From assembly GCA_937873375.1 (NCBI GenBank), contig CALMWK010000077.1, forward strand, positions 1 through 62,473: a DNA stretch of 62,473 bases. Reading direction: 5' to 3'. The notes beneath the pieces are model-generated. The model was not told where the DNA came from. It saw only the letters and a program-made list of their open reading frames with translations, and made no database searches. The position numbers and the translations under genes were made by a program. Below, piece after piece: positions 7,705 through 58,708 of this stretch. Position 1 is the stretch's first letter. Each line of letters opens with the position of its first letter. Source of the DNA: Candidatus Bathyarchaeota archaeon. GTDB taxonomy: Archaea > Thermoproteota > Bathyarchaeia > Bathyarchaeales > Bathycorpusculaceae.

Positions 7705-7889
7705 AAGGCATCACCGTGGTAGTAGCTATTGTCGCCAATTTGTCTGTGAGAATTCGAGTATTTAAGCCTAAAATTTGAGAAGAATTATACTTGAAAGAGG
7801 AGGGTTATAGCCAATGTTTTCGTCATCTTCTATGCGCTATAGTCAAAAAACAGCAACAGAACACACACCCACATACTAACAACCGTAAC

Positions 7890-8060
7890 TGCTTGTGGCA
7901 ACTTGCACAGCCAGCACGCAACCCAAAACACAACCAGACAACAAAAACCAACCCGCAAAACAGCGTCTAAGTAGTTGATGTAACTAAGCAACTAGCCATC
8001 AACAACAACCAAACAAAAAACAAACAACAAACCAAACCCAAAAAACCAACCCAAACAACC
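7890..8060 (+). repeat. A/C-rich, G-depleted intergenic element, copy A (upstream of psmA)
   Basis: Contains GTCTAAGTAGTTGATGTAACTAAG (7965-7988), identical to 40850-40873; CAACTTGCACA lies 66 bp upstream in both copies. Confidence 0.75.
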
Positions 8061-8164
8061 AACACAACCCCATTTCCCACACCCTATTTAAAAGGAAAGG
8101 TTTTTAGTGTTGTTATCCCATGAGAAATGGCGAATAGTGAAAAGAGTACAAAGAGGTTAAAATT

Positions 8165-8893
8165 ATGTCCGTATTTGCAGCACCAGGAGCATACGACCGT
8201 GCAATAACCGTTTTCAGCCCAGATGGCAGGCTCTTCCAAGTAGAATACGCCATGGAACTCGTCAACAGAGGCGCAACCATCCTAGGCATCCAAAGCGCCC
8301 AAGGCGTAATCCTAGCAGCCGAAGAAAACATCGAACCCCTCGAAGAAGCAGGCTACTCATGGAAAATCTTCAGGGTAGACGACCACATCGGCGCAGCCAT
8401 AGTTGGCTTAAGCAGCGACGCACGCATACTAATCGACCAAGCCCGAATATACGCACAAAGCAACAAACTCACCTACGACGAACCCATAGACACAGAAGTC
8501 GTCACCAAACGTATCTGCGACATCCAACAAATGTACACCCAACACGCAGGAGTCAGACCCTTCGGCGTCAGCATAATCTTCGGCGGAGCAGACAAAACAG
8601 GCTCACGCGTCTTCGGAACCCACCCAAGCGGCACATACCGCGGCTACAAAGCAACAGCCCTAGGCGCAGGCAGAGAAACCGCCCTAAATATCTTCAAAGA
8701 AGAATACAAAGAAGACCTAACCCTAGAAGAAATCAAAAAACTCAGCGTCAAATGCCTCGTAAAAGCCCTCGAAGCCAGGCAATTACCCGCACGCATAAAA
8801 ATCGCCGTAATCCCAACCGAAACCAAAAAACTCGAAATGCTCTCGGACGAAGCTGTAGACGACATAATCAAACAGTTGGGTTCGGGCAAGTGA
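8165..8893 (+). CDS. psmA: Proteasome subunit alpha
   Basis: YDRAITVFSPDGRLFQVEYAMELVNRGATILGI signature. Confidence 0.97.
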   Translation: MSVFAAPGAYDRAITVFSPDGRLFQVEYAMELVNRGATILGIQSAQGVILAAEENIEPLEEAGYSWKIFRVDDHIGAAIVGLSSDARILIDQARIYAQSNKLTYDEPIDTEVVTKRICDIQQMYTQHAGVRPFGVSIIFGGADKTGSRVFGTHPSGTYRGYKATALGAGRETALNIFKEEYKEDLTLEEIKKLSVKCLVKALEARQLPARIKIAVIPTETKKLEMLSDEAVDDIIKQLGSGK

Positions 8894-8900
8894 AAAAGTA

Positions 8901-9590
8901 ATGAGTGAAAAGTTTACAATTGCGCGATTCACAAAAGATAGCGAACATTTTGAAATCCTCGTTAAACCCAACAAAGCCCTCGACTACCGCAACGGGAAAA
9001 TCGCGGGCATAACCGAGGTTTTAGCAGCAGAAACCATTTATTCCGACGCCAACAAAGGCACCCGCGTAGCAGAAGACGAACTACGCAAAGCCTTCGGCAC
9101 CACAGACACCCTAAAAATCGCAGATGTTATTCTCAAAAAAGGCCAACTCCAACTCACAACCGAACAAAGACGCAAAATGGTCGAAGACAAACGAAAACAA
9201 ATCATCGACTACATCAGCCACCAAGCAGTCGACCCCAAAACCAACCTACCACACCCACCCATGCGCATCGAAAACGCCATGGAACAAATACGCTACCCCA
9301 TAGACCCCTACAAATCCATCGAAGAACAAGCCCGAGAAATAATCAAACTCCTACGCCCAATTTTACCCCTAAAAGTTGAACAACTCCAAATAGGCGTCAC
9401 TATACCCGCAACATACGCAGTACGCGCATACGGAGCCATCAAAGCATACGGCGCCATAAAACGCGAAGAATGGCGCTCCGACGGCTCATGGTACGGCATT
9501 CTAGAAATGCCAGCTGGCAGCTACGCCTCATTCCTCAACAAACTCGGAGACGTAACCAAAGGCGCAGGAGAAGCCAAAGTAATTAGTTAA
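8901..9590 (+). CDS. Ribosome maturation protein SBDS/SDO1 homolog
   Basis: FTIARFTKDSEHFEILVKPNKALDYR..., operon position between psmA and rrp4. Confidence 0.92.
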   Translation: MSEKFTIARFTKDSEHFEILVKPNKALDYRNGKIAGITEVLAAETIYSDANKGTRVAEDELRKAFGTTDTLKIADVILKKGQLQLTTEQRRKMVEDKRKQIIDYISHQAVDPKTNLPHPPMRIENAMEQIRYPIDPYKSIEEQAREIIKLLRPILPLKVEQLQIGVTIPATYAVRAYGAIKAYGAIKREEWRSDGSWYGILEMPAGSYASFLNKLGDVTKGAGEAKVIS

Positions 9591-40736: not shown

Positions 40737-40774
40737 CTTTTTTTAAAACAAAACAAGACAAGAAAACATACCTC

Positions 40775-40940
40775 AGTTTGTGACAACTTGCACAAACAAA
40801 ACAAAACCCAAACCAAACCCCAACCACAAAACACAACCAACAAAACAATGTCTAAGTAGTTGATGTAACTAAGACCCCACTCAACAACAACTAAACAAAA
40901 AAACAAATCGCAACCAAAAAGTCCCAATTTACAAAACCAA
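40775..40940 (+). repeat. A/C-rich, G-depleted intergenic element, copy B
   Basis: Shares the 24-mer and the 66-bp spacing with copy A. Confidence 0.75.
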
Positions 40941-44059: not shown

Positions 44060-44151
44060 ATGTTAAATTCTATAAATAAGGGGCTATATAGACTGTTTCG
44101 AGCAGCAGTTCTGAGTGCATATTCCCAATTTCTCTTTATCACTGGGAAATT

Positions 44152-49256: not shown

Positions 49257-49649
49257 TCAGTTCCCCTTTCCATTTTTAAGTTAGCAACAGCGGATTTTAC
49301 CCAAACACGTTTTAGACCGATATTTTGAAAGTTCCAGCTATATTGATTCGACTTCTAAATGGGATACTATATGCCTTGTGGAGCATAGTTTTTCCAGAAG
49401 CAACACGGATGTTTTCCACAAAAACATGAGTTAATGAAATTATTATATCTTACTATTGCAGTCTGAGGAAGAACAAGAACACGCCAACAGCACACCTTTA
49501 GTTCAACCAACCTTGAGGCACTGCAAAGTTTGTGAGGGTTTGAGTTCCCGTAAGCTTTCGAGGATACACCTTTTTTCCTTGCGAGGTTGACTAACCCATT
49601 TTGTGGGCAACAGAGGACACAGCACCAGAACAAGCCAAGAAAACACACA

Positions 49650-49850
49650 GTGCTGCTTGCCCCTACCTGCACAACCAATACACAACCAAACAAGATCCAA
49701 ACCAAACCTCTTCAGCAAAACCCAACCCACCACACAAACCCAAAGAAGTAGAAGTGCCTAGCAACCAAACAACAACCACAAACAAAACAAAAAAAAACAA
49801 GCACCCGCAGAAACCACACATTTCAGCAACCAATAACAACTGAAAAAATC
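49650..49850 (+). repeat. A/C-rich intergenic element, diverged copy C (upstream of thermosome)
   Basis: CTGCTTG..CTACCTGCACAACCA resembles copy A CTGCTTGTGGCAACTTGCACAGCCA; AAGTAGAAGTGCCTAGCAACCAAACAACAACC. Confidence 0.4.
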
Positions 49851-58418: not shown

Positions 58419-58708
58419 AACCACCGAAACTCTCTCATGCATTAACGCATGAGGGAAAAACTTTTTTCTTTTTCTCTTTTTCCTTTAAAACACAACCGCC
58501 CTGACAATAGAAAGCCTTTTTTCGAAAACTTTGATTCTAAAAATAGTAGCGGTTTGGCTCCACAGAACGCGTTTCTCGGCTTTCTGCCAGTCAAACAGCA
58601 GTCTACACACCAGTAGAATCTATAAATAGAGGGGGATATAGTCGCCGAGAGCAACTAGCCACCAGCGTAGAAAACTTAGGTCCGCTTCAAAGATGTTAAT
58701 GCAGCATT

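Follow-up and report, generated by a model that had tools for sequence, protein, structure and literature searches.

A MITE-like interspersed repeat between genes of some Bathyarchaeia

An A/C-rich element situated upstream of psmA in a bathyarchaeal contig (62,473 nucleotides, the whole of which was analysed and is called here the window) belongs to a real, new MITE-like interspersed repeat. We consider it probable, at about 0.78, that this repeat is a short non-autonomous mobile DNA element of the MITE type, devoid of coding capacity and residing between genes of some Bathyarchaeia. An earlier note on this DNA had offered four candidate functions (leader RNA, upstream protein-binding array, miniature repeat, chromatin-excluding tract), among which the miniature repeat is best supported. 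In the literature searched, whose coverage was partial, we found no report of an interspersed repeat or MITE of Bathyarchaeia.

The window contains three copies of the repeat, which, like all other features located below, lie on the forward strand. Copy A (7883-8030), located 5' of psmA, was delimited by BLASTN and profile matches across its own genome (G000), and copy B (40771-40911) by alignment and profile matches. The third, diverged copy C (49650-49805; 57 bits, E 1.6e-15; 3' boundary at 49798 or 49805 depending on the search), which the earlier note had missed, precedes a thermosome (Cpn60/TCP-1) gene recognized by Pfam. Copies A and B are 75% identical over an ungapped match of 126 nt. 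They share, exactly where it had been placed, a perfect 24-mer (7965-7988 and 40850-40873), which holds the 5' arm of the hairpin described below, and CAACTTGCACA was indeed found 66 bp 5' of the 24-mer in both. Since no match with up to three mismatches is expected in dinucleotide shuffles, chance origin of the A/B match is excluded. The family proposed from these two copies is real: a profile built from 15 copies detected approximately 50 copies in G000 at E<0.01, and the BLASTN and profile searches suggested in the note revealed additional copies both in the own genome and in relatives. The family unit is about 145 bp long. Several G000 copies in the profile search are truncated where a contig stops, as a repeat that breaks assemblies would be. 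Filling gaps 5' of housekeeping genes and sitting at contig ends, the copies probably fragment assemblies, and the repeat can be mistaken for a regulatory element.

Base composition itself might be thought to generate such sequences repeatedly, as chromatin-excluding or simple low-complexity A/C tracts, given that A/C-richness marks both the coding strand of the own genome and many of its gaps. This is extremely improbable. The copies have defined ends and conserved boxes at near-fixed spacing, they reach E-values of 1e-29 and are conserved across genera, and chance low-complexity origin was ruled out on these grounds.

Each copy consists of a 5' box (CTGCTTGT...TGCACAACCA), an A/C-rich linker devoid of structure, a hairpin close to the 3' end and a AAACAAAAAACAAA tail. 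In copy A, the conserved box, which reads CTGCTTGT-N-TGCACA(A)CCA in two copy alignments, occupies positions 7889-7915. In the G000 copies G hardly occurs in the linker and tail; the description of the whole element as almost free of G holds for these two parts and fails for the first ~25 nt. No conserved ORF was found in the element, and informal inspection of the copies revealed no attC-like or CRISPR-like features.

The hairpin had been drawn as TAGTT-GATGT-AACTA. The best fold of copy A instead pairs GTTGATG (7974-7980) with CATCAAC (7997-8003), and these arms are backed by compensatory changes across copies. Stems of own-genome copies are GTTGATG/CATCAAC or GTAG/CTAC, those of relatives GTTGTTGTTG/CAACAACAAC or GAAGATGAAGA/TCTTCTTCTT. 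In an alignment of 50 copies, 83% of cells pair in the stem. The number of two-sided stem changes (25 versus 14.8 +/- 2.6 in shuffles) and the covariation score, attained in none of 500 shuffles, are both inflated by relatedness among the copies and thus represent support, not proof. When the stem alignment is shifted by three columns, the score is still fairly high (at -3 nearly equal), because the hairpin arms have a period of three. The compensatory changes suggest that a single-stranded form, either RNA or DNA during transposition, matters. Conservation of the interior together with a covarying hairpin exceeds the needs of a bare MITE and counts against the MITE reading; sequence change from species to species with retained architecture could also fit a functional RNA.

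Outside the window's own genome, the repeat reaches high copy numbers in some genomes of a sister genus, while close relatives of these have few copies or none; one genome (G163) carries 56 copies and another (G085) 94 copies in the 1.44 Mb examined. The same genus mixes species having at least 12 copies with species having none. A structured-model search for the class matched 31 of 257 genomes, nearly all within one family, and across 85,000 species genomes a DNA-pattern scan found Bathyarchaeota bins only, besides one match in a gammaproteobacterium (L149), where the element is absent; that match was taken as chance. No exact match was present in viral contigs. A congener, G003, possesses its own 13-copy family of the same architecture and different sequence. 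In this family (L208-L220), palindromic GTATATRC...GTATATRCAA and a C run stand 5' of the common architecture.

The ends of the copies in the sister genus have features of a mobile element. Many G085 copies are bounded by the inverted repeats CAGTAGATCAAA...TTTGATCTACTG, and TTTGATCTACTG sits a few bases outside the copies, in inverted arrangement, in both G085 and G163. Beside the G085 copies the end motif occurs 20 times inverted at the left and 18 times direct at the right; the only exceptions, three forward motifs at the left, are compatible with right ends of adjacent units. In G163 the motif occurs 8 and 7 times, respectively, where the background is 0.1. Counted one base after the motif, TA flanks both ends in 23 of the 33 G085 pairs, while by our estimate about 0.1 pair is expected by chance at a TA frequency of ~6-7% in these gaps. 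The outer ends lie ~160-185 bp apart in units with the E core. The same ends also bound a second G085 family of ~275 bp (250-280 bp). Two members of the latter, C5:45001 and C5:48443, are 3.4 kb apart and their interiors look identical in alignment, which suggests recent movement or duplication.

None of the 40 G000 copies that could be examined for it has the sister-genus end motif next to it, and a different end sequence is possible there; membership of the G000 copies is based on homology of their interiors with the end-bounded G085 copies. A general inverted-repeat comparison told true flanks from mispaired ones in no genome, since the latter carry the ends of the family too.

Sites that are empty in a related genome agree with insertion. 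One G163 gap of 238 bp, occupied by copy L249, has a syntenic counterpart of 86 bp in G085, with flanks alignable on both sides, and another of 695 bp, holding copy L235, corresponds to 99 bp in G085. At two further G163 loci (L239 and L240), genes that are adjacent in G085 (C10:28400-30568) are split, and both breakpoints carry a copy of the repeat; this arrangement suggests recombination between repeat copies.

Insertion sites in G085 also show a target preference. When the flanks of G085 copies are joined after removing one TA, a TATA-like box with a G run after it is restored in 15 of 33 sites, compared with 2.05% of 14,223 control TA sites. This target, here called module P, is itself a dispersed intergenic repeat, with 100 copies in G085, often in convergent gaps, and continues after the TATA-like box and G run into conserved GAGAGCAACA or GAGACGTCGCGTG. 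The window contains one module P (GTAGAATCTATAAATAGAGGGGGATATAGTC) at 58607-58655, in a convergent gap, and a second at 44060-44105; equivalents flank many repeat copies. An ordinary gene promoter it does not appear to be: in co-directional G085 gaps it points the same way as the next gene in 18 cases and the opposite way in 29. As there is no bias towards the next gene, we call it at most a putative promoter.

Module P is nevertheless found as a TATA plus G-run unit 58-74 bp 5' of several copies and in the same direction. This raises the alternative of a multi-copy family of non-coding RNA genes, in which module P would be the promoter ~60 bp 5' and an A/C-rich RNA with a 3' hairpin the product, and which the compensatory changes in the hairpin would also favour. 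We regard it as quite unlikely. Module P also stands on the opposite side pointing away, or is absent; folded by themselves, 15 own-genome copies give a consensus structure with next to no stability (RNAalifold, -0.44 kcal/mol). Above the Rfam gathering score, the window yields only a tRNA and no match to the element, and the repeat loci only rRNA, SRP and tRNA neighbours. Moreover, copies are missing at orthologous sites, and inverted ends with TA duplication are unexpected for an RNA gene.

The situation upstream of psmA is in keeping with mobile DNA of MITE type. Among seven congeners, an intact copy is present at this place only in G000 and a differently sequenced cognate in G003, whereas in the remaining five the sequence there is unrelated to the element, consistent with empty orthologous sites. 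The psmA core promoter region is, on the other hand, kept in all seven; it reads TTTAAAAGGAAAGGTTTTTAGTG in most of them, just 3' of the element position, and its TATA box TATTTAAAA (8085-8093) lies outside the repeat, on its 3' side. With this conserved TATA box downstream of the element, a leader RNA of psmA is not supported. Nor is a conserved upstream protein-binding array, as five of the seven congeners have nothing there and G085 copies are no more frequent 5' of genes than at 3' ends or antisense. The repeat is not specific to psmA, and its positions do not regularly fit those of a leader or an upstream activator.

A broader version of the regulatory idea, in which the repeat would activate or insulate highly expressed operons from an upstream position, draws on the best-conserved own-genome copies, which precede psmA, GAPDH, enolase, rpsL, PheS, L15-SecY, rpoB and thermosome genes; these names were read from sequence, and Pfam confirmed psmA and the thermosome gene. 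It also draws on orientation, which had been thought constant relative to the next gene. This is true of the three window copies; genome-wide, 27 of 41 downstream genes in G000 are co-oriented (27:14), and the bias in co-directional gaps is only 11:5. It disappears in G085, whose 94 copies, nearly all of them intergenic, comprise 22 in the same and 21 in the opposite direction, 22 in divergent and 24 in convergent gaps and 5 overlapping called, mostly short ORFs, with gene calls made by a simple codon model, so individual cases may be wrong. The housekeeping impression did not survive these orientation counts, and with many copies at convergent 3' ends and nothing 5' of psmA in five congeners, we judge an activator or insulator very unlikely.

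If the repeat is a MITE-type element, a transposase acting in trans would cut at the inverted ends CAGTAGATCAAA...TTTGATCTACTG. The cut ends would then be joined to a TA target and the TA duplicated, often inside the TATA-like, G-run module that is itself repeated. Copy A would have landed 5' of the psmA core promoter and be dispensable there. We infer the transposase, its class and its activity in the window's own genome. The self-comparison of G085 proteins, serving as a paralogue screen, gave no obvious multi-copy transposase, and no ORF-bearing pair of the same ends was evident in the 1.44 Mb of G085.

The hairpin near one end and the intergenic spread could alternatively point to an IS200/IS605 or REP-RAYT type of element, with the hairpin serving as a single-strand transposition signal. 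That is highly improbable, since the Y1 transposase family (PF01797, IS200/IS605 type) is absent in G000 and G085, and G085 displays terminal inverted repeats and TA duplication; to our knowledge, neither IS200/IS605 nor REP-RAYT families have terminal inverted repeats with TA duplication. Such ends bring the MITE-type repeat closer to the IS630/Tc1/mariner superfamily, which is characterized by TA target duplication and short inverted ends. MITEs of this superfamily share both traits with the repeat as seen in G085, whereas its end sequence was matched to no known family, and the repeat may be placed in this class by virtue of the TA duplication.

BOX, RUP and BIME sequences are modular mosaics formed by several repeat types between genes. 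The repeat likewise takes part in a modular intergenic mosaic, but its sequences are different and it constitutes a TIR-bounded unit with TA duplication. MITEs have been described from Sulfolobus, Halobacterium, Haloquadratum and others (PMC10969869). Prokaryotic MITEs such as Correia elements, MITEAba12 and the Sulfolobus MITEs resemble the repeat in being short, ORF-less, intergenic and present in many copies, and in having inverted ends, target duplication and nested clusters (PMC10969869 and general knowledge). The repeat differs from them in that no parental insertion sequence was identified and inverted ends were undetected in the own genome, and in its internal covarying hairpin and its strongly preferred target, a TATA-like module that is itself repeated.

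This preference is the most unusual trait of the repeat and makes promoter-targeted transposition in archaea testable. Insertion targeted to promoters is documented in bacteria for TnGBS, ISLre2 and ISKra4 elements, and archaeal ISH6 is known to have an AT-rich target (PMC3942029). Like the repeat, the Mutator-like elements TnGBS, ISLre2 and ISKra4 direct insertion to promoter-like sequence in gaps; TnGBS, however, inserts 15-17 bp 5' of bacterial sigma-A promoters (PMC3942029), whereas the TA of the present archaeal repeat lies within a TATA-like box. A bolder proposal, which we hold to be speculative and rather unlikely, is a bathyarchaeal transposon system whose miniature elements enter TATA-box-like sites specifically, TATA surviving beside the new end. 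This would be an archaeal equivalent of integration targeted to promoters, in which TBP might act as a guide and the conserved single-strand hairpin would be required for mobilisation or for an RNA function.

Other repeated sequences accompany the copies in G000. A second A/C-rich subtype (L018, L019, L021, L022, L024) has the form AACATRGC...ATGTTGCCTGTGAA...AAAAGTAGTGCCACAGCAAAC and lies, at L018, directly 3' of a type-1 copy. A further module, Q (GTAAAGTTTGTGAGGGTTTTTGGTTCAGG...TTTTTTCTTTTGAGTTGACTAA), recurs 5' of own-genome copies (L064, L066, L073, L126, L139 and, in the window, ~49530-49600). Finally, coding strands in the window are strongly A/C-rich, with positive AT skew and negative GC skew, for example at 8165-9500, and A/C-rich skew is also common to many intergenic regions of the genus.
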